NCBI GenBank assembly: GCA_948567375.1
Contig: OX419757.1
Span: 53,379,665-53,443,664, forward strand
Origin: Lunularia cruciata
Lineage: Eukaryota; Streptophyta; Marchantiopsida; Lunulariales; Lunulariaceae
DNA length: 64,000 nt
Direction: 5' to 3'
The position numbers were made by a program, and so were the translations under genes. A model generated the notes under the pieces. That model was not told the origin of the DNA and did no database searches. It was given only the letters and a program-made list of their open reading frames with translations. Position 1 is the stretch's first letter. Each line of letters begins with the position of its first letter. Below are positions 5,580 through 51,616 of this stretch, in pieces.

Positions 5580-6290
5580 AAAAAATACCTCCTTTCTTGT
5601 TTCTTGTCTTCTTTCTCAATAGTTTCCTCTCTTTGCTGCACTTTTGATTCCTCAAAACCCCTTTCCTCTATTCCTTCTTTCGATTCATCAAAATTCTCCT
5701 TTCTTGTTTCTTGTCTTCTCTTTTTGCTGGACTTTCAATTCATCACTCTCCTATCCTCTATTCCTTCATTTGATTCCTCAAAAAGACCTCCTTTCTTGTT
5801 TCTTGTCTTCCCTCTTGATGGTTTCCTCTCTTTGCTGCATGTTTGATTCCTCACTCTCCTTTCTTCTATTTCTTCCTTTGATTCCCTAAAAAAAACCTCC
5901 TTTCTTGTTTCTTGTTATTTCTCTAGATGGTTTCCTCTCTGTTACACTTTCAATTTCTCACTCTCCTTTCCTCTATTCCGTCCTTTGATTCCTCAAAAAA
6001 ACCTCCTTTCTTGTTTCCTATCTTCTTTCTTAATGGTTTCCTCTCTATGCTGCACTTTTGATTCCTCACTCTCCTTTCCTCTATTCCTTCCTTTGATTCC
6101 TCAAAAAAAAACTCCTTTCTCATTTCTTGTCTTCTCTCTCAATGGTTTCCTCTCCTTGCTGCACTTTTGATTCCTCATTCATGTTTCCTCTATTCCTTCC
6201 TTTGATTCCTTAAAAAAAGCCTCCTTTCTTGTTTCTTGTCTTCTCTCTTGATGGTTTCCTCTCTTGCACTTCTTCACATCCAAAAATGCA
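5580..6290. repeat. Minisatellite, ~109-bp unit, about seven copies
   Basis: The marker CCTTTCTTGTTTCTTGTCTTC or a close variant recurs at about 5588, 5697, 5787, 5897, 6002, 6112 and 6221, spaced 90-110 bp apart and mostly 105-110. The plus strand is strongly pyrimidine-rich; the minus strand reads as Lys/Arg/Glu-rich peptide. The array abuts, and appears to replace, the 3' half of the gypsy-2 RT. Confidence 0.85.
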
Positions 6291-7690
6291 CTTCTCTAGG
6301 TTGAGTGATGCATTTACCTCATCCAAGCATTGAAAGACCTTGATAAGATGCTCAAAGTGCTTCTCCTTGCTCCCATAGATACAAAAGTCATCAATGAAGT
6401 CTCTCACAAATTTCCCAATGAAAGGTTCAAATACCTTGTTCATGAACCGTTGGAATGTGGTTGGAGCATTGCAAAGCCCAAAATGCATGATCTTGAAAGT
6501 GTAAGTTCCCCAAGGTTTGGTGAATGTGGTGAGTTGTTGATGCTTTGGTGCAATATTGATTTGGTTATATCCACTATAACCATCTCCAAAACTGTACTTC
6601 TCATGACCTGCAACCTCCTCCAAGATCTCATCAATGAATGGTAATGAGTAGTAGTCCTTCTTGGTAACACCATTGAGCTTCTTGTAATCCACACATACCT
6701 GAAGCTTTCCATTCTTTTTCTTCAAAATCACAATTGGAGACACCCATTCTGAATTCTCCACCTCAAAGATAAATCTAGCCTCCTTGAGCTTATCAATCTC
6801 CTCCTTCACAACCAAAGCTATTTATGGGTTAATGCAACATTGATTTTGGCAGACTGGTCTTGCATGTGACTCCACCTCTATCTTGTGCTCATCCAAGGTG
6901 ACTTCCTTCAGATCCTTGTAACTAAAAGCAAACACATGGATGAACTTGCATAAAATCTCCTCAAATCTCACCTTCTCCTCCTTGGTAACATTTGGACCAT
7001 ACTTGAGGGTAAATAACCTACTCTCTATCTCCTCAAGTGTCAATGGTGATTTATCTGGGTCCTTCAAAACGTCTGGCTTAGGTGCAAAATCCATAGCACA
7101 CAAGGGATACACATCTAAATCAGAGTTAGATTCATCCTCCTCTATAGAAGTCTCCTCTTCTATGCTTGTATCCACACTTGAAGCTCTTTCTTTAGAATTT
7201 GATTCCCAATAATCAGAAGATGGTGTATCTGAATGTGAAGTATTGGTGGTATTAGTCATAAGAATTGTGACTCTATGGTTTGGTGGCCCAATCCTCAAGT
7301 ACCCTTTATGCCGTTTATTAGTTGTGTGTGTTGCTCTCAACCATGGCCTTCCAAGAAGTAAGTCATAGCTTGAATCCTTCAAGACTTGGAAATTTTGAAC
7401 TCATCATAATGAGATGAGATTTTGAACTCCCATAATTGAAACTACCACTTTATCCATCACCCCTACTAGTCAAAATTGTTTTTTGTTTGCCATGCTCACC
7501 ACAAATGTTGAAGGTCTTGAGGGTATCATACCCAACTTCTCCATCAACCTTTCTGAGATGGCATTCAATGCTGATCCTCCATCAACCAATGCATCTTTGA
7601 TGTTATGACGATTCACTCTCACATCAATCTTGAAGGCATATTCACAAGCCTCCCATGGTGTTGGTTTGGCATCCACCACCCCCATTCATA
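6290..7690 (-). pseudogene. gypsy-2 pol: protease and truncated reverse transcriptase
   Basis: The protease active-site region is at 7685-7470 (KDALVDGGSALNAISERL, a D-G-G variant) and the protease end is YDLLLGRPWLR at about 7365. An acidic linker (SIEEETSIEEDES) follows, then RT. RT blocks include VSPIVILKKKNGKLQVCVDY, GYNQINIAPKH and the catalytic box FIDD at 6398-6387. After the block EKCIFGCEEV the frame continues as RKPSREKTRNKKGG, which is the translated minisatellite and not RT. RT therefore lacks its thumb, RNase H and integrase. A stop after CCINP separates 6822-7382 from 6210-6815. Confidence 0.85.
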
Positions 7691-20942: not shown

Positions 20943-21502
20943 TTTCATGCGTATATACATTGCTACACAACATACATCTCTGTCAACATCATACACTATA
21001 GAACACAACTCACACATAAGTCATACATAGATTCTAAAGTGCCACAATAATCAGATTGTTTACCACTCTCAACTCAACTCAACTCAACTTAGATCAGTAC
21101 TTGATCTATCACTCTACAAATTGCCAACAATTGAGCATTGATTACAATCAAGCCACACCCACTCTAGCTAAGAGAATGCAAGTGACGCTCGCCGGCCTCT
21201 GTCCACCATAGCCAGGAACTCGAAGGCTCAACATTAGAGAAGTGAGCTCTCTAGAGCTGCACTTGGAAAGTATACCCCTAGACTCGAGCTAGGTCTGAAA
21301 CCCTAACGGTCTTGCTGACGGCACACTTGATGGTGCAAATGGTGCAAAGTGACGGTGGGCCCCACTGTGAAGTCAATACCCCAAACACAAAATCTGACCA
21401 TCAGAAAGTAGTCTATGAGAAACTGCTGAAATAACTCTAACTTCTATCATTGGGACTCTAGTGTCCGAGCAATCTAGATGCGATACTACAAATGGCATGA
21501 CA
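20943..21502 (-). repeat. gypsy-3 3' terminal repeat (A2+B2, 560 bp)
   Basis: The minus strand runs from TGTCATGCCATTTGTAG to ACGCATGAAA. It consists of a 453-bp part A2 (21502-21050) and a 107-bp part B2 (21049-20943). The same A+B unit forms the solo LTR at 34082-34635. A CTCAACTCAACTCAACTC microrepeat lies inside. A2 also matches the 5' repeat A1 at 30955-31403. Confidence 0.88.
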
Positions 21503-21610
21503 ACTATCATGCATATATACATCACTACACAACATACATCGTTGTCAACATCATACACTATAGAAGCACAACTCACACATAAGTCATACATAGACTCTAA
21601 AGTGCCACAA
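21503..21610 (-). repeat. gypsy-3 extra repeat segment B1
   Basis: About 108 bp matching B2 (both contain GTGGCACTTTAGA and GTCTATGTATGACTTATGTG-type words) lies between the polypurine tract and A2. The 5' repeat A1 lacks a B segment, so the element reads A1 - internal - B1 - A2 - B2. Confidence 0.85.
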
Positions 21611-21784: not shown

Positions 21785-23034
21785 ACATTTAGGACATAAC
21801 TACTATCCCTGAGGAACCACTATGAGTGGAGGAGTCATACATGCCATATGCCATCCTCTCAAACAACTATCACACACTAACATAGTAGTAGCTCCACCAG
21901 AAGAGCCACATAACATACACCTCAAGCCTGCACGTACAAGTGCCAAGCTTGGATCCATAGTACCATCAATGTTTGGGAGGTGATATGGCGCACAATTGCG
22001 CACATGATCTTTCCAAACAACACCATCACGTCCTTCTAACATAAGGACTCCAGATGGAAAAACCTCACACACTCTCAAGATAGTGCGGCTTGTCTAAACA
22101 TCAAGTGTAGTTGGTGCTGTCTGCTAAAGATATACATAGTCGCATGGATGAAATTGACGGATTGAGAGTCTATAACCTCCTCCTCAAATGGTAGCATAGT
22201 GTAAAGTATCCTATGTTGAGTAATTGCCAAGTTCTCAAAGGCCACCGGCATCACTCTCCAAAAGATCTTTGCACGCTGAGAACATGCACTCATCCATACA
22301 TCTAGATCATCCAAGTCCAAGACTATAGTAGCACCTTGATGAATGGCTGCAAGTAAATTTGGATCTTGTCAATATAGTAGAAAGTATGAAGAGAAGGATG
22401 CTAAGTAGGCTTGTCGGCTGAACCGATAGTCCATGGCCAACCAAGGTAATTGGAGATCCCAATCTCCCAAGTTTTCTACAAAATTTTCTACATACTTTTG
22501 CAATCCTCTCTTCAATGTCTGAACCACTCTCTCTGCTAAGCCATCTGCCTTAGGGTGATCTTGGGATGTAGTACGATGATCAATCAAAGCCTTATCACAC
22601 AAGACCTGAAACTCCTCCAAGAACTCTATACCCTGATTAGTCAAAACCTCAATTGGTGCACCAAAATGACTAAGAACTTGATCCAAGAACTAGTAAGCTG
22701 TCCCTTCACTAGACTTGTCAGGAAGTGCCACCAACTCAATCCACTAGGAGAAGTGCTCCACCATCACCAAAACATACCGATGATGTCTCACAATCAACGG
22801 TAAAGGTCCAGCAAAGTCTAAACTCCAACGGTAACCCAATCCCATGATAGGTAATGGGTGTAACTGTGGCATTGGAGCATTGAAGGATGCTCTAACTCGG
22901 TCACAAACCACACATCTGACAACAAACTGTTGTACCTTGGTCTGCATACCGCACCACCAATAATGACTATGGAGTAAGCTATATGTACGCTTTACTCCAA
23001 AATGTCCTAGCTCTTCATGAGCATGACGGACCAA
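21785..23034 (-). pseudogene. gypsy-3 integrase with C-terminal PHD finger
   Basis: The zinc-binding H-H-C-C segment is at 23034-22744 (HAHEELGHFGVKRTYSLLH, then CVVCDRV). The DDE core has SLDFAGPLP (first Asp), LTNQGIEF (second catalytic Asp changed to Asn) and HPKADGLAERVVQTLKRG (Glu) at 22686-22369. The C-terminal region (22078 on) holds RVCEVFPSGVLMLEGRDG and NCAPYHLPN, then at 21919-21785 a PHD-type pattern: CMLC, CDSC, then H and C (GWHMAC) and CPKC, that is C4HC3. Two stop codons fall just before CPKC. Integrases insert the cDNA; PHD fingers commonly read histone H3 tails, so a targeting role is an inference. Confidence 0.85.
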
Positions 23035-23129: not shown

Positions 23130-24800
23130 CTAAAGAACATGGTCTCTCTCCTTGGCCCCAACTGTGCCACCCACAACACCAATGCAAAAATATTCCATCA
23201 CTAAGACATCATCATGAATGTCTCGCTGAACTATACCAATATCTTCACTCTCTACATCTATGATCTCAATATCTCCTCTTGTATGTGCTAAGAGAGATAT
23301 CACCAAAGCCTTTGAAAATATACACAGAAAGGCCGATGCATGCCAACCTGGCACCATCTCCTCATCAGTCTCACCATGCCAACGTGCTCCGGTCTGATCT
23401 TGCTGGCTGGGACATGGGTTTCTACTCAACCCATCTACATCATGGTTCACCACTCTAGGTCTATGAACAACTGTGAAATCATACTCCTATAAAACCAGAG
23501 CCCATTGTGCAAGCTTCCTTGAAAGCTTGTCGGACTCCATCAACCACTTTAGTGGCTGATGATCAATGATGAGAATGAAGGGGTTACCAAATAGATAACA
23601 TCGGAAATGTGCAATTGCCCAAACTACTGCCAAGCACTCTCCCTCATATGAACTATACTTTGCCTCTACTGAATTGTTGGAGCAACTAGCATAGGCCACC
23701 ACAAACTCCTTCACCTCATCAGCATGCTGGATGAGCACCGCTCTAAGCCCCAATATACTCTAATCAGTATGAACTTGAAATGGTCATCCTCTGATCGGTC
23801 ACCTCCAAATAGGAGCAGATGTCAACCTCTCCTTGAGCCCTACAAAGGCTCTCTTTTGCTCATCTCCCCAACACCACTCCTTTGTAAGCCTGGTCAGCTT
23901 TGTCAAGGCCTTTGCAATGACACTAAATCCTCTAACATAGCGGTGATAGAAGTTTGCCAACCCAAGGAATGCTGGCACTCTGCTCACATCCGTAAGCCGA
24001 GGAATATGTGCAATAGCCTCCACCTTGGTTTGCTGAAGACCTAGTCCTCCTGGGTAGATAATATGACTCAAATACTCAACCTGCTTGTGGAAGAACCTAC
24101 ACTTCCCAAGATGTAATTTGAATCCATGAGATCTCAACCTCTCAAACACCTCCAACAATTGTCTCTCATGCTCCTCCATAGTAGTATTATAGACCAAAAT
24201 GTCATCAATATAGCACCAAGCAAAATCCAATCCAGCTAGGATCCTATCCATGACCCTTTGGAACTCAGCAAGAGCATTCTTTAATCCAAACAATAAGAAC
24301 CTCCACTGATATAACACATCCTTGCCATGAGGATCAATAGCCCAAAATGATGTCTTGAACTTATCCTCCTCCTTGATCGGCAACTGATGATATCCCGCTC
24401 AAAGATCCAAAGTACTGAAGACCTTTGCATGCCCAATCATATAAAAAACTCCTCCGATGTAGGCATGGCACACCAATCAGCCCTTGTCTGTCGGTTGATA
24501 GAATGGTAATCTCTACACATCTGCCTATTTGTGTAGTTGCTATGCATATCCTTCTTGGCTAGCATCAATGTTGCTAATGCATACTCTCCATGTGAAATCT
24601 CCACCAAACCAGCCTCAAAAAGGTTAGTACTCCGGCTCTGAATCAATGTCCTCTCCATCTCACTATATCGATAAGGACGTTGGAAAAATGGTGTATCGCT
24701 AGTCAGCTCAATCCATATACCAAGTCCCTTCAGAGCATCCAAATCCTTCATATTGAAGGCAAAACAACTCGTGTGTCTCCTCAAGAACCTCCAAACCCTC
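23130..24800 (-). pseudogene. gypsy-3 reverse transcriptase and RNase H
   Basis: The RT N-terminal part is at 24784-24437 (PFFQRPYRYSEMERTLIQSR and EISHGEYALATLMLAKKD). The core is at 24383-23799: TSFWAIDPHGKDVLYQWRF, NALAEFQRVMDRILAGLDFA, the intact catalytic box YIDD at 24212-24201, and the connection LGLANFYHRYVRGFSVIAKA. RNase H at 23753-23487 has YSSYEGECLAVVWAIAHFRC and DHQPLKWLMESDKLS. The tail at 23453 (DVDGLSRNP) links to integrase. Frame changes occur between blocks. This is the element's cDNA polymerase. Confidence 0.9.
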
Positions 24801-25219
24801 CGTCTTTCCTCTCCAGTAAGCTTGGGTCCAAGATTTGGCTCCCAAGTATCCTCTATAACTGTAGTAGGAGTGGAAGATGTCCTGACTGGCTGCTACACTG
24901 GGCCCTTGGGAGCAAAAGTGTCATGCTCCCGACCACTAGAGGTCCCAACCTTTGTGTGAAAAACTCCTTCCACTTTGGCTACAAGTTCCACACTTCCTCT
25001 AGCTGCATCCCAAGTGGACCAAGGGTGTAATCCAAGTAGCCCATGCTCACCTGGATGGACTCCAAGTAGACCACTCTCCCTAGTAGCTACTGGCTATGTC
25101 CCAAGAATACCATGCCCCCTCGGTCCATTACCCCCAACATGTGCCTGAATTGTCTCAATAGGCACATGGCTCACAAGTGTCAGAGTGGTGAGGCCTATCA
25201 AGCGCATCCTATGCTACTC

Positions 25220-26172
25220 TACCAAGCCAAGGCTCACAATCTAGGTCAAACAATTCAGGTCCATAGCCTGACCTAACACTTGATGCCTCTGATACTATTG
25301 GAACATTGGTAATACTGGTGCAAAAACCCATCACTTGCTCTCTCTCATCAGCGTTGGGCTCCACCAACTACTGTAACTATGAGTCCCAAACAAGTCCAAG
25401 TCCTCCCTCTCAAAAAGCATGAGAGCTTGGGAAACTCATGAGTGTGAGAAATGCGGCTCTAGGCTGTCCAACTAGGTTCACCACTGCCGTAGGTGATCTA
25501 TCAGCCACTACCACTATCTGAGACTGACACCCAACATCCAAGATATCATCAACAAGGATGTGGTCAAGTCGTTGAATGTCATCATAAGCACGTTGTAGAA
25601 CCTCTTTGGGTAAGAGGTTTGTCCACCAAAGACGAAGACGGTGAGTCTGTGATCCCACTTTGGCTACATCTAACAATATAGCAGGTCCCCTCCAAGAATG
25701 GACATGATGTGTACTTGCCACCACTCTAGTGAAAAAATCACTCATCAAAGGAACTTTCTCCAAAAGGTAAGCTGGAGAAACAGATTGAAGAACCTAGAGA
25801 TGTCATAGAATTTGTAACATTTTCCAAAACACACCAGAATGAGGATCCTAAAGACCCAACCCTCTACCAACACGTGTATGTCCATGACATGGCCATCTAA
25901 AAATCACCAAGTGAATAGGCCCATGTCTCTCCAGATCATAAATGCCCCTAGTAAGGAAATGTTTGCTGGTGGGGCCTTTTGGTAACCTTTGACTGCTGAC
26001 ATTGGTAATAACTCTGGATATCAATAGGCCAAGTGTGCCACATGATGTAGAGAGACTCGCCTAGCAATCTCATGTCTCTCTACATACAAGTACCTCTATA
26101 CTCGTATACCCGCTTGTAATACCGTAGCTAGTTGGTGCTAATCCCACCAAACAACTCCAATAGACATATCCC
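25220..26172 (-). pseudogene. gypsy-3 DNA cytosine-5 methyltransferase domain between protease and RT
   Basis: Reading the minus strand through two frameshifts gives C5-methyltransferase motifs in canonical order. Motif I is LELFGGIS at 26160-26137 (S-adenosylmethionine binding). Motif II-like YVERHEIARRVSLHHVAHLA follows near 26080. The motif IV region is WPCHGHTRVGRG with the catalytic Pro-Cys at 25892-25887. The motif VI position is YLLEKVPLMSDF near 25770-25735 (ENV has become EKV). Later blocks are HSWRGPAILLDVA, HRLRLWWTNLLPKEVL, VDDILDVGCQSQIVV and FPSSHAF (25763-25410). Then come ADEREQVMGF near 25350 and, in the motif X position, LGQAMDLNCLT near 25275-25245. About 310 codons is a normal size for a bare catalytic domain. 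The C-terminal blocks recall DNMT3/DRM-type enzymes, an inference by eye. Confidence 0.82.
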
Positions 26173-26286
26173 CTCTATTGGATATTGCCAAGCAATGAGT
26201 GTGGTATCCAAAGGTGTCAAAGTAATTGACTCTGAAGGCTCATCCTCACACTCATCTCCTGATGGTACGAAGGCTCCACTCCAAGC

Positions 26287-27231
26287 CTACTGCACCAACT
26301 GATTTGCATGCTGCTGCAACGCCGCCTCTGAACTCCACAATGGAACATCCAAGGTGGATAGAACAATCCAACTCGTACTCCAAATCTGAGTGATCTCCTC
26401 TGGTACTAGAGTATCCTTTGCATAGGCATTCCCCTCCAACAAGTCACCAAGCCAAGTAACTACACCACTGAAAGCTAAAATTGATGCTGCCATGGTCTTG
26501 GACTGTAGTGAGCCAAGATTGCCACTACTGAAGCGTATTGGTAGGCAACATACCCGTCCCTCACCAGACTACCAACCTGGTTTATAGGAGGCTATCTCCT
26601 CCCAATAGTCAATGCTGAAACCCATGGGGTATAACAATGCTCCCCCAACTAGCACATCATATGACTCAACTATTGTTGCAATAGCCTGAGCTCTCACCAC
26701 CAAGCTATCAATTAGATGACCAGGCTGAACCTGGACAACAAGCTCTCCACGTGTGATTACCTGTGTCAAACCACCACTAAGAGATATCTAGATTTGAAAT
26801 GGACACCTCTCCACATCGGTCTTCCGTAACTCCAAACCGACAACTACAACCTTCTCCAACATAAAGGGTTGCGCACCAGAGTCTAAGAAGACTCTCTGTG
26901 ATGTATAGACCTTCCCTAAAGGTCCCACCAAACGGAAAATCCCCCTTTGGTTATCCAATAGGACAACACCAGGTGTGAACCGTGCTCTCTCAAAGGCCAG
27001 TCTAGTTGGCAACTCATCAAGTCTAGCCGCTGTTGCCTGCCATAAACCATTGGTCGCTAAACAGATCCCATGCTCCTCAACCAAGTCAGCTCCACTACCA
27101 ACCACCTCTGCTCTAGTAGTAGGAACCACATCATCTTTACTCTCACAAAGCATGACAACCAACCAAAACACTAGGCCTGGGTCAACTCCCAATGTAAACA
27201 TGTCACTTGCTGAAAACAAAGGGCACCTCAT
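26287..27231 (-). pseudogene. gypsy-3 aspartic protease region
   Basis: One frame from 27231 to 26287 with few stops. The retropepsin active site is VFLDSGAQPFMLEK, with D-S-G at 26883-26875. Flap and C-terminal blocks are TQVITRGELVVQVQPG and SYDVLVGGALLYPMGFSIDY (26769-26569). The segment at 26493-26287 (MAASILAFSGVVTWLGDLLE) connects protease to the methyltransferase. Retropepsins cleave the polyprotein; here they would also release the methyltransferase. Confidence 0.82.
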
Positions 27232-27237
27232 AATGAG

Positions 27238-27789: not shown

Positions 27790-28200
27790 TGGGTGGAGGT
27801 CAAAACATCAGTCACTAGTGTTGTAATACTTTGAGGACAAAAGAAGAGAGAAAACACAGATTGCACACTCAAACAATCGATGCCCCAAGGGAGCACCTTC
27901 TCTTTATTATATAGACAAAGAGGATCTCCGCCAAGGAAGCTCCACCATAGGATTAGGGACATAGATAGGTGACATGTCAGCAAGCTTCACCCTTGGATTA
28001 CTTACTTGGATGGGTGACATGTCTGGTCTAGGTTCTATCTGGTTGGTCAAACAAGCTTTGACCGGAGGGAATCTTTTAGGGAATCTTCCTGTAGGAATCT
28101 CAGAATCACGTGAGTAAGGTACCATTGGAAAGCTCTTGACAAGACAATGCAAGGGGGAAGGAAGGCCAGCCTTTCCTTCATTGGGGGGGGATTTGCACAT
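27790..28200 (-). promoter_or_regulatory. Promoter-like or LTR-like spacer between gypsy-3 gag and pol
   Basis: The minus strand has a TATA box TATATAATAAAG at 27913-27902, then a CT-rich leader (TGTTTTCTCTCTTCTTTTGT) and the pol ATG 137 bp downstream of the TATA. Two GACATGTCACC(C/T)ATC words lie upstream, near 27970 and 28015. The layout equals a plant Pol II promoter or the U3-R-U5 of an LTR. It is not similar to the terminal repeats of this element. Confidence 0.5.
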
Positions 28201-28270
28201 TTTTGAGGCCTAATTCATCCGTTTAGGCCTCTGAAATTGCCTTCAAAGATTTCAGGCATATTTTGGTTCC

Positions 28271-28570
28271 TACTCTATTAGTAGAAGTCCCCTTTTGATG
28301 ATACCTCTTTATGATCTATTTAGTCCATCATGTGTAACATCTTTCTAGATGTTTCCAAACCAATTCTCACCTTTAAATCATATGTCTAGCTATTGGTTCT
28401 AAGGTTCTCAAGTTTATTTCGGTTTCTTCCCTATTAGTAGAAGTACTCTTTTGGTGATACTTCTATCTGATCTATTTCAACCATCATGTATAACATAATT
28501 CTAGATGTTACCAAACCAAATTTCACATCTAGATCATATGGCTAACTCTTGGTATTACAAGTGTGCCCAA
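28271..28570. repeat. Tandem duplication, 156-bp unit, two copies
   Basis: CTATTAGTAGAAGT begins at 28275 and 28431. The following 140 bp align (TCTAGATGTT, ATCATATG and other shared words) with moderate divergence. It lies between the zinc-knuckle end of gag and the promoter-like spacer. Confidence 0.8.
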
Positions 28571-29760
28571 ATCTATGGCAATGCTCACACTACCTCTATG
28601 CTTGCTGTGATACACCCAAGGTATCAGGTCCACTACCCTAAGTACACTCTCTATGATGGTGAGGTCCACCACAAGTCCAACAAGCAACACCACTACTCAT
28701 TGGCTGCTGCTGACCCAAAAATAAAGGTAAGGGTCTAACTCCACTAGGCCCTCCACTTGCTCCATAGGATCTAGGCTGTCCACCTTGTCCTAAAAAACCA
28801 ACTGGGCATGGTGCACTCTACTGCACTCTAGAAGAAGTCACAATTGTGGATGAGGTCTTCCTACCAAATCCAGGTGTCACCATCCTCTCCTCCACCATGT
28901 TGAGCTCAATACGCTCAACCAAACCAAAGACCACTACCAAAGTAGGCAAAGTAGCCTGTAACAACATAGCATCATGAACTCTATGTCGCAACTCCTTGTC
29001 TAGTATCCCAAACCAAAACTAGACTGCTTGGGCCTTAGTTACTCCCTGAGTGAAACTAATCAACCGCCTCATGCAAGTGTATGCCTTGCATAGGCTCTCT
29101 CCAGCCTTCCGTTGGAACTCCTGCAAGCTCCTCAACTTGTCAGTCTGCACTTCCTGGTAGTTCTGCCTCAAACAATGGAAGAACTCTTCCATGGGGTTAA
29201 ACCTTGATACCACACTATCTTTTGCAACGGTACCTCTACTTGTAGTAGCACTATCTCCATCTAGTGCACCTCCACTAGCTCCATTAACACTACTCAAGCT
29301 AGAACTTGTAGGTACATCCCAATCTACTCTTGGCTACCAAACCTGAAGTGATAGAAACATAGTTTGGAGACCAATATTGTCTCTATAACTTGATCTCCTC
29401 CAAATGAGCTCTCTTGAACTCATGGTAGTCATCCACCGTCGGACCCTCTAGATGCTAAAACAATCCCTTCCATCCCATGAAGGGTGTAAACAAAGTTGGG
29501 TTCCGCATCTGCTACAGATCACACCAACTATCAAACTCTTAGATGAAGTCATCCAACTCAATGGTACCCACTGTACCAAAGTAATGTGAATGGCCTTTGG
29601 AGGCCCCATAAATCTCATCCATGTCCCACAACAATGGCGCAGACACACCAAGTGCACTCTCAACTAAATCAACTCTTGAGTCAAATTCCAACTTAGAGTC
29701 AATCTCCTCCCTCACTGGGACCTGAGATATAGGCTGATATCGAGTACCACTACTTACTAT
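28560..29760 (-). pseudogene. gypsy-3 gag with zinc knuckles
   Basis: The capsid part near 29760-29450 includes RYQPISQVPVREEIDSKLEF, LGVSAPLLWDMDEIYGASKG and HSHYFGTVGTIELDDFI. 29297-29019 contains NPMEEFFHCLRQNYQEVQTD and LRSLQEFQRKAGESLCKAYT, the retrotransposon gag helix region, followed by LDKELRHRVHDAMLL. The C-terminal part has two knuckle-like motifs, CWTCGGPHHHREC near 28650 and CEHCHRFGHTCNT near 28580. Frameshifts and stops break it into pieces. Gag would form the particle and bind element RNA. Confidence 0.8.
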
Positions 29761-30954: not shown

Positions 30955-31403
30955 TAATCAGATTGTTTACCACTCTCAACTCAACTCAAATCAGATCAAT
31001 ACTTGATTTGTCACTCTATAAACTGCCAACAATTGGGCATTGATTTTAGTCCAACCACACCCACTCTAGCTAAGAGAATCTAGGTGACGCTCGCCGGCCT
31101 CTATCCTCCATAGCCAGGAACTCGAAGGCTCAACATCAAAGAAGTGAGCTCTCTGGAGCTGCACTTTGAAAGTATACCCTTGGACTTGAGCTAGGGCAGA
31201 AACCTAATGGTCCCATTGATGGCACACTCGACGGTGCAAACGGTGTAAAGTGACTACAAGCACCACCATGAAGTTAGTATCCCAAACACAAAATCTGACC
31301 ATCAGAAAGTATTCTATGAGAAATTGTTGAAATAACTCTAACTACTATTATTGGAACTGCAATGTCCAAGCAATCTAGATGCAACATTACAAATGGCGTG
31401 ACA
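30955..31403 (-). repeat. gypsy-3 5' terminal repeat A1 (449 bp)
   Basis: The minus strand runs from TGTCACGCCATTTGTAATG to ACAATCTGATTA. It aligns along its whole length with A2 (21502-21050), but the 107-bp B segment that follows A2 and the solo LTR is absent; the sequence goes straight into the leader. Confidence 0.88.
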
Positions 31404-31407
31404 CACT

Positions 31408-32130
31408 AGAAGGAGAAAGATTTACTGAGTAAGTTGTAGTGTTGATAGCTTCAACTCAACATACTCCTCATCCGCTCCAATAGTGTTTGAATGAGCCACT
31501 CAACAACACCATTTTTCTATGGAGTATATACTGTAGTGAGATGGCAAGTTATCCACTCTTGTTAACAATACACCTAAAATTCTCTAGAAGTGTATTCCTT
31601 GCCGTTATCTAATCATAGATATCTCACTTTCTTACTAGTCTGAGTCTCAACTTGGGCTTTCCACTTCTTGAAAGTGATAAAGACCTTAGACTTTTGATGT
31701 GGGAAATAAATCCATACAAAACTCAAATAATCATCAATGAAAGATACATAGTATAGCTTTCCAGAATATGAGGAAGTGAGGGATGGGCCACACACATCAC
31801 TATGTATATAGTCAAGAATTTCTTTGGAACTATGAGTTCCAACACCAAAATATTTCCAATGCTACTTCCCTAATACACAATGCTCACAAAATTCTAAACT
31901 ACTAGACTATAGTGTAGAAATAACGCCTTTCTTGCAAAGAATAGACATGCTCTTCTCACTAATGTGACCTAGCCTTGAATGCCAACAAGTAGTCAATCAT
32001 ATCATGAGATCTAGTAGCATGAGCTTCTCTAAAAATAATGTTTCCCTCTAGCACATAAAGATTCTTGTGCCTATTTCCCTTCAAGATGACTTTTCTCCTA
32101 GCCATGACTTGAAATACACCATCAACTACT
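31408..32130 (-). pseudogene. copia integrase, N-terminal and core part
   Basis: The zinc-binding pre-integrase motif is HSRLGHISEKSMSIL with CEHCVLGK near 31990-31890. The core has SDVCGPSLTSSYSGKLYYVS and FIDDYLSFVWIYF (31795-31613), then RYL where the second catalytic Asp follows (RSDNG-type block, next frame). It continues to AINTTTYSVNLSPSS, where gypsy-3 interrupts at 31403. Confidence 0.85.
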
Positions 32131-33283: not shown

Positions 33284-34081
33284 CTTGTTCTTATCCCTCA
33301 AAGAGTGGTCCAAACACTAGCAAAAACAATATTGTACAAGTGGCACTAGGATGGAGACATGTCCTAACACGCACTACGTAAGATGAATTGCATACTTGTG
33401 GGTAGAATTCACTCTCTCAACTTGGAAGGGATGGTGATTGTAGTCAATTAGAATGAGTGGAAAGCATGGAAGGAGAAACAATAATGAAAGTCTCAAACAA
33501 GACCAGAAGTGTATAGTAGATGCCATCTTAGGTTGATGTGTCTTGTGGTTACTAGTCTGAATTAGTCTATCTCCGGCTGATTTAGGATGACTTAGTTCAT
33601 ATTCTTCTAAACATTTTGCTAGAGTAGTAGTTAAATTCTAAAGATGCCTTAGTAAGCCCAAGTGCAACCCTCTTTTTTAACTGACAATTTGGAAGTCCGG
33701 CAGTAGTAATGACTGAGTGACTAAAAAATAGGTTGACAGACAGATAGACATAACAACTACTACAAATATTACAAGGTTCCTTCTCCTCCTTATCCTTGGT
33801 AGCTTTGCATATCCACTCCTCAACACCAATGATTCAATTGAATCTTTCATAATATCTCCTTTGAGACTGCTTTGCTCATAGCTTGTAAGTGTCTCCAATC
33901 CAACTCAACTAGCTACTATAACAACCATTGGCAAAGCTTTGCATGTGGACTTCAAAAAAAGAAAAGATCACTTGAAACAAGTCCAAACATCAACAAGTTC
34001 CAAGAAATTTTGGCTCCTTGCATGCTCCCGTTGGACTACTCACCAAGGATTCCCCATGTTCTTCCGACTTGGTGGACAATT
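33284..34081 (-). other. copia leader, gag-proximal part
   Basis: No supported gene. The open frame 33898-33677 on the minus strand has a hydrophobic run (NLVIFVVVVMSICLSTYFLV) but no recognisable family, and is probably chance. Confidence 0.4.
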
Positions 34082-34635
34082 TGTCGTGCATATATATATC
34101 ACTACACAACATACATTGCTGTCAACATCACACATATAGAAACACAACTCAGACATAAGTCATACATAGACTCTAAAGTACCACAATAATGAATTTGTTT
34201 ACATAACTCAAATCACACTCAATTAGATCAATACTTGATTTTTCACTCAATGATCTACCAACAACTGGGTATTGATTACAATCAATCCACACCCACTCTA
34301 GCTAAGAGAATCTAGGTGATGCTCACCGGCCTCTGTCCACCATAGCCAAGAACTCAAAGGCTCAACATCAAAGAAGTGAGCTCTCTAGAGTTGCCCTTTG
34401 AAACTATACCCTTGGACTCAAGCTAGGTCTCAAACCCTAACGGTCCTATTGATGGCACACCTTACGGTCCAAATGGTGCAAGTGGCTGTAGGCCTCACCA
34501 TACTGTCAGTACTTCAAACAAAAAATCTATCTATTGACAAGTAGTCTATGAGTAACTACCAAAATACTCTTGACTACCAACACTACTACCCCAGAGTCCG
34601 AGCAATCTAAGTGTGATGCTACAAATGGCATGACA
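34082..34635 (-). repeat. Solo LTR of the gypsy-3 family in the copia leader (554 bp)
   Basis: Minus strand TGTCATGCCATTTGTAGCA to ATGCACGACA, an A+B unit homologous to 21502-20943. It is flanked by AATT on both sides (34078-34081 and 34636-34639), a 4-bp duplication like the CACT of gypsy-3. The ends are TGTC...GACA. No internal sequence remains. Confidence 0.85.
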
Positions 34636-48390: not shown

Positions 48391-50656
48391 CTAGAGCCAA
48401 GGGTAGGAGCACGTATACATAAGTTGCTCCAAGAACCAGACCCGGAATAGTGAGTAGATTGAGCATGCTAAAGTTGTGGAGGTCTGAAGGAGGGAAGGGT
48501 GATACCGATTCAGCGGTTGTTCCGCATCCCGTAGGAATGACAATGGTACTGACTCTGACGAGGTTGCTGAAAATTGAAGAAGTGAAGTTTTATATCGGCG
48601 CAGTGCTTCCGTGTCCCCTTGGATTGACATTGACGTTGACAATGATATATCCGAGTCCTCTTGTATACTTGGCAAATTGTCAGCTGATGTAACCATTGGC
48701 TTCCGGGGTGCCATCACGTATTGAGGTCCACCATCATTGTACGCCGGGCGTGGTTTGGACTTCGGAATGGGAGGCATTCCTACACTACCTGCCAGGATCT
48801 CTACGACTTGCCGCATCTTGGGTCGAGCATCTGGATCTGGGTTGGAACACAAGAGACCTAGAAGTAGCACTTCAACCTCCGTTAAATCATATTGATTCTC
48901 GAGCCTTGGATGTACAACACTGAACAGACTATCGTGGTTCAAGCAGTCCCAGACCCAATCCACGAGAAGAATCTCCTCCTCGGGCAATTCGGGACTGTAA
49001 GCTAGCCTTCCGCAGGCAACTTCCAGAGCCACTGCTCCAAATGCATAAACGTCCGTCTTCTCTGTGAACTTCCCTGTGTAGCTTCCACGTGACGGTACCT
49101 CAGGGGCTATGTACCCGTATGTTCCTGCCAGCGAAGTGGTGGCTGGCTTGTGATCACGGTCCGCCATCCGGGCCAACCCAAAGTCCCCTACTATTGCATT
49201 AAAATCCACATCCAACATGATATTGCTGGACTTAAAGTCCCGGTGGATAATATGTTTTCTTGAGTTTTCATGAAGATAAAGCAAAGCCTCCGCAGCACCG
49301 ACAATGATCTTAAATCTAGTTTTCCAGTCCAACACTGATCCTGCAACTGGCTTAAAAAGAGCCTTATCTAATGATCCGTTTTCCACCAGTTCATAATAAG
49401 AACGTGCCTTTATCGATGCACCATCCAAGCAAGTTGACAATGTTACGGTGTCGGAGCTGGCTTATGATAGAGACTTCAGCCTTGAATTCCTTAAAACCTT
49501 GCTTCGAATCGGTGCTCAATCTTTTGACAGCCACCAGTTGTCCAGTACGTGGTAAAGTTCCTCTATATGCACTTCCAAATCCACCTTGCCCAAGTTTGTA
49601 ATCGTCGCGGAATCCTCCTGTTGCCACGCTCAATTGTTGAAAGGTGAACAGCATACTATCTGCTATGTCAGCGAGCCCCAAGTCTTCTACGGATTCCTCA
49701 TCCGTGGCGGACCTTCGACCATAGAGGAAGTACAGGAAGACTGCAGAGACTGAGACTATGACGGTCGAAACCGCAGTGACCCCAGCAATTAAAGGAACTT
49801 TGCTAGTATGTGTGGGAGCAATATCAGAAACAACTTGAAAGTTCCAGTTGTAAACAGTATAAAAGTTGTGGCAACTGCAAAAACCATTTGCACCGGTGAG
49901 GCCAACGTATATAAGCCCGCCCGACTCACGTTGGAAGATATCGGACAAGATAACTGGAGATTCCAGAAAGGCTTGAACAGGTCTGGAGTTTTTGATACTG
50001 ACTCTAACTTGGAGGAGTGCATGTGACGAACTATAGTCGATAGAGGCAAACAGAGTCTGATTACCAGCAAGATTAATGCTCACTTCGGAGGCATTCCTAC
50101 TGCAATTCGATCTCGGGCTTTCAAAGTCCACACCAACATGGTTATCGTTGATGTCCCCGAACTCATCATTTTGATGTGTGTCAATCACAACAGCCAAAGT
50201 GCGGACGAACTGTTTCCCATCTTTACCATACACGCCGAAAACGTTCTCGAAAGTTACTGTGAATGCATAATCACTGACCAATACAAATGTCATTCCCTCG
50301 CCTCTCCACTCAATTGCGCCTGGCTCAATCTTAAAGGTAAAAATACTGCTAAACGAATGCCATCGATCTGCTGAAGAGTCCCACAGTTTGATAGGGTCCC
50401 ATGCAAACGCCATGCCAAGTGAATTCCTAAACTGAATCGTATTCCTGCTGTCGAATTTCTCACTACGCATGGGAGAAAGCGTCAGATGTCCAAACTCTGT
50501 ACTGGCGTTCGCGTCGCACCTTAGGTTCCCTTCTACATTGCATTTAAAGGGGTTTGCGTCCGTCCCCAGCGAGAAGCCTTTCGGGACTGCAGATTTGCAC
50601 AGTGTTCCGTTGGCCAAAATGGCTATGAAAGCCAACATCAACTCCAACCAAAACAT
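48391..50656 (-). pseudogene. L-type lectin receptor-like kinase with one frameshift
   Basis: The N-terminal frame (50656-49391, 421 aa) has a signal peptide (residues 1-23), a legume-lectin domain (about 25-278, with AVVIDTHQNDEFGDINDNHV as metal-binding-type loop), a transmembrane helix (about 288-312) and the start of a Ser/Thr kinase: LGQGGFGSAYRG (355-366), the catalytic Lys in VAVKRL, and the helix C region to NIVNLLGWCIDKGTFLL. The rest of the kinase (49400-48391) is in another frame: YELVENGSLDKALF, IIHRDFKSSNIML (HRD), VGDFGLARM (DFG), YIAPEV (APE). The shift lies in TTATTATGAA at about 49395, within the kinase hinge, equal to one base gained or two lost. All catalytic motifs survive, so this may be a recent pseudogene or a sequence error. 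Such kinases sit in the plasma membrane and signal from extracellular ligands. Single exon otherwise. Confidence 0.88.
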
Positions 50657-51616
50657 TTTAATTGGCTTTACTGGTTGAATTACAGCAACTGATTTTCTGT
50701 CAGACAGAAGCTAAAATCCGTGATCCCCGTGTGCGCTATCTCCGGAAAGATGAGGAAGAACCCTCAAGGCTTTACTTCACAGGCACATAAAAGATTTGAA
50801 AATCTACAAGTCTCTTGAACTACAACTAATCTAGAGCGGGCAGAGAGTGGCGATGATATGAGCCGCCTTAAGGGGAAGTTAAGCTCCAATGATGCCATGA
50901 ACTCGAGAATCTCTCACAACTCTTACTGCAAGAGTAGGGGTATCCAAAGAGCCGATCACAAGTATCAGATCTTCGATAAACGTTGACAATTCAAAAGAAA
51001 TGAGGTGATGAAACTCGAAACAGAATACGTTGAAGCCTATCCTCTTCATACTCCTGTCACTAGATCAAGTACTGTACACATGAACAAAGTAAACTTTCTT
51101 CTAGGGAAGTACATTCGACTTTCTTCAAGTCAATATCCGTAATTACAATAGTTCGAGTCGTATGAACCTCTAAAGTCCATAGCCGGCCCACTGCGACCGG
51201 GAGCGGCTCATCACCCAAGACTCCAGAATACTCAAAGAATCTTAGGAAGACTTCTTACCAAACCTCTTGTCATAAAGGTGGTCGACGCATCAACCATGCA
51301 CTTGTCTTCGTAGATAGGCCCTTCTTTCCTACGGTCTGCCATCCGAACCCAATCAACCAGCAAATCAGCAAATAACCATTTCGATGGTCAAGAAAACCAC
51401 CATCTCGAATTCTCAAATTGGCTTATGCTAATGTGTAGTAGTAGTAGTTAGCTGATAATATGATCATGTGATATTAGAATAATCTATATTAAGTGTTCAA
51501 AGAACATTAATTTGCTCCGACAATGCTTTCAGCGGTTGTAATTTAACTTATGAAAAATTTGGTCTTTCTAAGAAATTTATAAATTTACTTTCATAGTCTT
51601 ACCTAGATACCTGCCG

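Follow-up and report, generated by a model that had tools for sequence, protein, structure and literature searches.

Retrotransposons that carry a DNA methyltransferase of the DNMT type have been reported from dinoflagellates and from the charophyte alga Klebsormidium (de Mendoza et al., 2018; PMC5890265, in its accessible parts), and a 2019 paper states that land plants lack methyltransferase-bearing Gypsy elements. Searches of the open-licence full-text literature, at the level of listings and opening lines of abstracts and with subscription papers and preprints outside their scope, showed no report of methyltransferase-bearing elements in bryophytes, and the accessible portions of PMC6453930 and PMC12344493 name no such element in these plants. 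Here we describe a stretch of 64,000 nucleotides (“the window”) from Lunularia cruciata (assembly GCA_948567375.1, contig OX419757.1, positions 53,379,665 to 53,443,664 of the forward strand). The window almost certainly holds a dead copy of a high-copy Ty3/Gypsy long terminal repeat (LTR) family that encodes its own unpermuted DNMT3-type cytosine-5 methyltransferase (MTase), with the catalytic motifs between the protease and the reverse transcriptase (RT); this judgement covers identity and family membership jointly. A first-pass annotation, made from the sequence without searches, had proposed such a domain and had mentioned the dinoflagellate and charophyte precedents, which the accessible text of PMC5890265 does report.

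The identity of the domain is established through its relatives. An unbroken environmental relative of 368 amino acids (P0001) aligns with the window by tblastn with its residues 1-366 on 26298-25217, in four collinear pieces and three frames (strongest E 5e-83). A protein database search with the MTase returned 59 homologs, the best at E 7.8e-135 with 64% identity over 99% of the query, which excludes chance motifs. All of the motifs named in the first-pass annotation were found on the minus strand, in canonical order, between the DSG protease and the RT, although the domain is slightly longer than the span it gave (25220..26172) and is split by stops and frame changes. What we take to be motifs I, IV (PC), VI (ENV), VIII, and IX/X stand in unpermuted order. 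LEKV was correctly placed as motif VI but is a decayed LENV, as the window copy reads EKV with Lys where Asn is retained in all 38 other copies readable at that codon. Based on the nearest sequences, the predicted fold, and the motif order, the enzyme is DNMT3-like; the DRM-like origin offered beside it is ruled out, since the DRM order places VI-X before I-IV, as in the permuted host DRM (L002).

The window copy itself gave no Pfam family for any of the four pieces or for an X-masked read-through because it is too decayed for a profile scan, and the earlier reader had recognized the domain by eye. In a search of solved structures, the read-through matched only DNMT2-type chains (E 0.42 and 0.47), and one single piece matched only unrelated molecules. 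The PF00145 match expected of intact members was obtained with the unbroken relatives, as seven of the seven scanned pass the cut-off (P0001 at 42.7 bits against 22). With its MTase domain broken by stops and frame changes, the window copy is dead and unable to make the enzyme.

The element lies on the minus strand between two LTR-like repeats, and every part of it is decayed, including gag, the DSG protease, the MTase motifs, RT, RNase H, and integrase. The LTRs and the presence of gag, protease, RT, RNase H, and integrase in Gypsy order identify it as Ty3/Gypsy. Positions of the motifs, gag, RNase H, and integrase were counted by hand from the translation. The features are as follows, in the direction of the element:

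30955..31408, minus strand, 5' LTR (aligned part), pairing with 21048-21506 at 85.2% identity (Kimura two-parameter distance 0.152)
29022..29207, minus strand, gag core piece, matched collinearly in all 20 fetched copies
28644..28682, minus strand, CWTCGGPHHHREC in gag, read from the translation, which we take to be a CCHC zinc knuckle
27820..28556, strand not applicable, 737-bp stretch between gag and protease, absent from copy L014 and containing a 156-bp tandem duplication at 28236-28547
26788..27237, minus strand, aspartic protease region with DSGAQP at about 26866-26883, matched collinearly in all 20 copies
25217..26298, minus strand, DNMT3-like cytosine-5 methyltransferase domain in three frames with stops, from tblastn of P0001 residues 1-366, homologs, and the predicted fold of the relative P0001
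26137..26160, minus strand, MTase motif I, LELFGGIS, with Phe and Gly retained in 38 of 38 copies
25872..25895, minus strand, MTase motif IV, WPCHGHTR, catalytic Cys present here and in 37 of 38 copies
25752..25763, minus strand, MTase motif VI, LEKV, decayed from LENV by comparison with family copies
25614..25649, minus strand, MTase motif VIII region, QTHRLRLWWTNL, where the aligned relative resembles DNMT3A
25323..25352, minus strand, ADEREQVMGF of the MTase, read from the translation
25244..25276, minus strand, MTase motif X region, LGQAMDLNCLT, read from the translation
24893..24895, minus strand, in-frame TAG closing the gag-protease-MTase frame, then CAG CCA (UAG-CAR-YYA), TAG in 40 of 41 copies including the window copy and TAA in one
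23799..24892, minus strand, pre-RT segment and RT in open pieces, PF00078 at E 2e-20 on 23799-24398
23421..23765, minus strand, RNase H, piece matched in 19 of 20 copies
22411..22998, minus strand, integrase (zinc finger and core), with a match to the core piece in 19 of 20 copies
21048..21506, minus strand, 3' LTR (aligned part), pairing with the 5' LTR

The MTase domain is family-wide. Searches covered the genome of 566 Mb in 74 contigs; a search with P0001 yielded 13362 candidates, of which 111 matches were scored, at 72-74% identity, and PF00145 gave 123 scored matches among 2161 candidates, those listed all lying over the cut-off. Eight PF00145 loci were cut out, of which L005-L008 match P0001 along its length, L001, L002, and L004 match it weakly, and L003 does not match. 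By sequence, L001 and L004 read as DNMT3-type host genes (L001 with several exons), L002 as DRM, and L003 as a DNMT1/CMT-type piece. Among 20 copies selected by their MTase, ten for long open frames and ten spread along the match list, all 20 hold gag, protease, MTase, and the first RT piece in collinear order, which 19 of them continue with the second RT piece, RNase H, and integrase. A further 20 copies were selected by RT alone, using the window RT as the query and taking every seventh of 150 scored matches (rows 4-137), and the 2.1 kb upstream was inspected. At least 366 of the 368 MTase residues are present in 18 of these, 65 residues in L047, and none in L043, so the domain is a part of the family, as the first-pass annotation had held, and not a private insertion at this locus. 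LTR dating was tried for ten copies, of which seven aligned (203-541 bp, some partial) and L010, L011, and L023 gave no alignment. The divergences are 0.006, 0.008, 0.019, 0.020, 0.026, 0.042, and 0.171 (the last over 203 bp), so that insertion of copies has been fairly recent, and the window copy (0.152) is old.

Three protein searches returned 158 distinct proteins, many of them unnamed and environmental. The named relatives include Marchantia polymorpha, M. paleacea, Sphagnum fallax, S. jensenii, S. troendelagicum, Calypogeia fissa, Riccia sorocarpa, several Closterium strains, and Cymbomonas tetramitiformis. Occurrence in land plants is independently supported by the named Marchantia, Sphagnum, Calypogeia, and Riccia proteins, and by sequence the nearest named relatives of the family are in mosses and liverworts. 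Some of the Marchantia and Sphagnum models, with public sequences, are already named cytosine-5 methyltransferases in databases (P0004, P0033, and P0062). An RT profile identified RT in the same protein in 54 cases, with the MTase ahead of RT in 25 and behind it in 29; in this second type, the mapped cases place the MTase between RNase H and integrase, and a PHD finger is frequent. No protein named Klebsormidium is among the relatives returned, which is no evidence of absence since candidates were limited by length and word matches. Scans of IMG/VR returned no relative of the window piece or of P0061, and with the MTase alignment they returned six viral contigs (L029-L034) with cytosine methyltransferase-like stretches at 31-53% identity over part of the domain.

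A tree was built from 54 rows, consisting of 50 relatives hand-chosen from the 158, the family copy L009, and three references (human DNMT3A, host DNMT3, and host DRM). A branch with 100/99 support separates every element MTase from human DNMT3A, host DNMT3 (L001), and host DRM (L002), the only references and all on long branches. L009 shares a group with the three Marchantia rows, P0001, P0002, and P0060 (100/99), and another group unites all 11 Closterium rows (100/99); the deeper forks are weak, and three long-branch references cannot place the capture of the MTase. With these few references, the MTase joins a clade of MTases borne by elements of bryophytes and green algae and thus does not look captured from the present host. 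As to the proposal that the element acquired a host-type enzyme, the likeness to DNMT3 is supported, and the present host does not appear to be its source.

Some of the relatives differ in architecture. Environmental and Cymbomonas proteins (P0082-P0098 and P0157) represent the second element type, in which the MTase follows RT and a PHD finger often lies at the C-terminus. A C-terminal stretch in P0082 and P0097 (LLDPWAGTCTIE... in P0097) resembles a second methyltransferase motif I by eye, and P0097 has no Pfam match there. The Closterium MTase proteins P0104, P0106, P0110, P0111, P0113, P0114, P0120, P0121, P0123, P0124, P0127, and P0152 carry precomputed PF00098, presumably a zinc knuckle, and P0124 also carries PF07727, presumably a Copia-type RT family; these are either chimeric gene models or other element classes bearing an MTase.

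The frame that holds the MTase is arranged unusually. In L009 and L010, a gag-protease-MTase frame of 1428 codons, stop to stop, is closed by UAG-CAG-CCA directly ahead of the RT-RNaseH-integrase frame. The description of the domain as lying inside pol is accordingly right as to its position between protease and RT, but the MTase ends the gag-protease frame and is parted from RT by an in-frame TAG (TAA in one copy). The best explanation, to which we give a probability of roughly 0.6, combines the identity of the element, the MTase in the Gag-protease frame, readthrough, and self-methylation. The MTase would be made and packaged along with Gag and protease, and a minority of ribosomes would pass the UAG to produce RT and integrase. 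The enzyme would then methylate the new DNA of the element itself, in the particle or at a fresh insertion and probably at CG; the copy would thereby be labelled as self, or insertions would stay mild enough for tolerance. That self-methylation is the main role is a tentative suggestion with somewhat less than an even chance. A more specific scenario is rather doubtful as a whole: a DNMT3-type methylase would be a particle component in Gag-like amounts, RT and integrase would arise only via a leaky UAG, the cDNA would be methylated before or at integration, and the source copies would not be treated as foreign, the last of which would agree with their CG and CHG content, better kept than in another Gypsy family of the same genome.

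Readthrough of the UAG is probable, judging from the frames and the stop context. Where no frameshift intervenes, as in L011, L013, and L014, reading on in the same phase beyond the UAG leads into the RT frame. The stop is TAG in 21 of 21 copies (the window copy and the 20 MTase-selected ones) and in 19 of the 20 RT-selected copies, with one TAA. It is followed by CAR in 20/21 and 20/20 copies (40/41) and then by YYA in 21/21 and 18/20 (39/41), and 37 of 41 copies have the complete signal UAG-CAR-YYA. In tobamoviruses and others, this context, UAG and then CARYYA, constitutes the type I readthrough signal (PMC5382211, in its accessible parts). The stop is common to all 41 copies (TAG in 40, TAA in one), while any other in-frame stop from the protease to that point occurs in at most 5 of 20, and it appears to be ancestral to the family without special conservation within it. 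When the stop was left free between its exact flanks, 512 places were found genome-wide, 502 of them with TAG (98 TAG and 2 TAA among 100 listed), and a single control codon left free gave 620 places with 502 unchanged (GTC). An unusually conserved stop, as suggested by this one control, was rejected in comparison with 60 neighbouring codons.

Protein ends and segments in relatives also bear on this point. Among relatives, the same tail (...ASPKVFA, 78 residues past the MTase) closes P0046 and P0056 (Sphagnum jensenii) and also the unnamed P0003. Proteins of Marchantia (P0061, P0066, and P0069) and environmental ones (P0060, P0072-P0074, P0076-P0078, and P0131) have no RT and end 72-126 residues past the MTase. 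These ends, seen at the protein level, would fit a stop at that place in relatives too, but other rows end elsewhere. The segment between the UAG and the first in-frame ATG has 64% identity over 33 residues to Sphagnum fallax P0081 and is recognisable in Marchantia P0065 and P0068; it thus looks like translated protein. Three observations weigh against readthrough. The stop is identical in 40 of 41 copies compared with a mean of 0.939 over the 60 neighbouring codons, many of which reach 41/41, and so is not conserved beyond its neighbours. The ratio of nonsynonymous to synonymous change (dN/dS) is 1.13 right after the UAG at a dS of 0.021 and 1.07 right before it, both uninformative. Moreover, a single predicted protein spans MTase and RT in Closterium P0127 and P0099, and hence not all such elements require the UAG.

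The UAG could instead be an ordinary stop, with RT-RNaseH-integrase produced by internal initiation, reinitiation, or splicing. The four copies inspected have an in-frame ATG 41 or 48 codons past the UAG, predicted introns seem to connect the parts in some gene models of Marchantia and Sphagnum (P0081 and P0063, the latter apparently continuing into RT in this way), and the uninformative dN/dS past the UAG would be compatible with it. We consider this unlikely though far from negligible, as the frames are in phase across the UAG, the complete leaky context is retained in nearly all copies, and the similarity to proteins of other species starts ahead of the in-frame ATG.

For self-methylation, the decay spectrum is the point to be weighed. 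In the window copy, C-to-T changes relative to the long-frame copy L009 affect about 0.30 of CG, about 0.25-0.26 of CHG, and 0.054-0.057 of CHH sites, with A/T sites changed in any way at 0.041-0.047, and three other copies behave alike. Another Gypsy family of the window (6213-6821, minus strand), with many copies elsewhere in the genome and an unbroken frame of 1611 codons, gives 0.46 (12/26) at CG, 0.25-0.29 at CHG, and 0.07 at CHH in the same comparison over 2051 bp. No MTase was found in 3.5-kb stretches of this family (L076 and L077), which are less than the whole element. Given the likeness of the two footprints, the decay offers nothing in favour of self-methylation, and a derivation of self-methylation from the decay spectrum was rejected since the other family gives the same pattern. 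In both families, CG and CHG sites look like targets of host methylation, with no distinct trace apparent from the enzyme of the element.

The long-frame copies differ more between the families. In the coding parts of four such copies of the MTase family (L009, L010, L014, and L016), the observed/expected ratio is 0.40-0.49 for CG and 1.15-1.32 for CHG, and four other copies, taken over the whole stretch, have CG at 0.37-0.43. The EF-Ts host gene has 0.66 and 1.45, and the long-frame copies of the other Gypsy family (L076 and L077) have 0.12-0.13 and about 0.5, respectively. Source copies of the MTase family may have escaped methylation, which is a lead only, with one family of each kind compared. 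The retention of CG and CHG near the level of a host gene, against the depletion in the other family, might also be expected if the enzyme targets host chromatin or defence, for example by altering silencing marks near insertions or by competing with host DNMT3/CMT. That role is improbable, as a younger or recently arrived family would look identical in such a comparison and the old window copy decays like the other Gypsy family.

The MTase is under purifying selection, as estimated from substitution patterns. The pooled dN/dS is 0.40 among the 20 MTase-selected copies (codon bootstrap 0.28-0.59) and 0.43 in the 8 with an open MTase. It lies below the simulated neutral value of 0.77 (0.63-0.96), which was obtained with the observed context bias. 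RT (0.34, simulated 0.49-0.77) and gag (0.25, simulated 0.52-0.79) also lie under their ranges. Among 38 copies, the catalytic Cys is retained in 37, the Glu and Asn of motif VI in all 38, and the two Arg of motif VIII in 31 and 25; the Cys and the Glu-Asn are near-invariant in alignments of 11 and 24 relatives, although Closterium P0099 has WECQ instead of WPCQ. Some points limit the force of this result: protease (0.54), RNase H (0.41), and integrase (0.60) are inside their simulated ranges, the remaining settings of the simulation were set by us and its divergence was not adjusted to that observed, and every family copy studied derives from one genome. If the MTase were a passenger, an old capture still translated with Gag as a spacer or structural part without an enzymatic role, the loss of motif VIII Arg in a number of copies would fit. 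We regard this as quite improbable given the dN/dS below the neutral range, the almost invariant catalytic residues, and the retention of the domain from Closterium to bryophytes. Finally, an accident of the locus, by chance motifs or a private insertion, is refuted, as the lack of Pfam matches in the window copy alone is outweighed by the database homologs, the complete MTase in 18 of 20 RT-selected copies, and the 111 genomic matches to P0001.

Other features of the window include a third LTR-like copy at 34074-34635, about 2.7 kb past the 5' LTR of the element, which is perhaps a solo LTR. The window also encodes an EF-Ts/S1 polyprotein, a pectinesterase, and a legume-lectin receptor kinase (48394-50710, minus strand), the last with two overlapping open pieces near 49.4 kb that indicate an intron or a break. 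Together with the DNMT3- and DRM-type genes of the genome and the bryophyte kinship of the element, this gene content points to a land plant, probably a bryophyte.

Since cytosine methylation ranks among the main host weapons against transposons, it is paradoxical for an element to bring along a DNMT3-type methylase of its own. An MTase-bearing Gypsy element is already known in Klebsormidium; what is new here is the land-plant-type element and its unusual frame arrangement, which clearly predicts methylase in excess over RT and integrase. The abundant, recently inserted bryophyte copies and the relatives in Marchantia, which has good genetics, would make the gain of a retrotransposon from a methylase directly testable.

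Compared with known systems, the stop context shares UAG and CARYYA with the type I readthrough signals of tobamoviruses, which stand in RNA-virus replicase genes in the accessible text of PMC5382211, whereas here the candidate signal lies between MTase and RT. Plant DNMT3 and DRM host genes are alike in catalytic-domain fold and motifs, but the host DNMT3 (L001) and DRM (L002) are separated from the element clade at 100/99. The MTases of Closterium, Cymbomonas, and unnamed environmental elements (such as P0099, P0103-P0130, P0157, and P0082-P0098) are on the same side of the tree as the window family. Unlike in that family, protease, MTase, and RT are in one protein in Closterium P0099, P0104, P0112, and P0118, and the MTase follows RT in Cymbomonas P0157 and many environmental elements, with its mapped position between RNase H and integrase and often with a PHD finger.

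The remaining comparisons rest on the accessible parts of PMC5890265. SymbioDIRS-Dnmt3 and SymbioLINE-Dnmt of dinoflagellates are likewise DNMTs borne by retrotransposons, and the discussion in that paper mentions a demonstrated ability of SymbioDIRS-Dnmt3 to methylate CG; they differ in belonging to other retrotransposon classes and are described as independent acquisitions. KnitGypsy-Dnmt3 of Klebsormidium nitens is also of Gypsy type, and its Dnmt3-type domain is unrearranged, lacks introns, and is under purifying selection. The Ka/Ks reported for it is under 0.2, compared with the MTase dN/dS of 0.40 in the window family, where frames are continuous. Its domain is described in the open reading frame of the Pol polyprotein, whereas the MTase of the window family closes the gag-protease frame, with an in-frame stop before RT in all 41 copies. 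The figure legend gives KnitGypsy-Dnmt3 DIRS-like terminal repeats, and the window family, with its ordinary direct LTRs and land-plant relatives, is set apart from it by this description.
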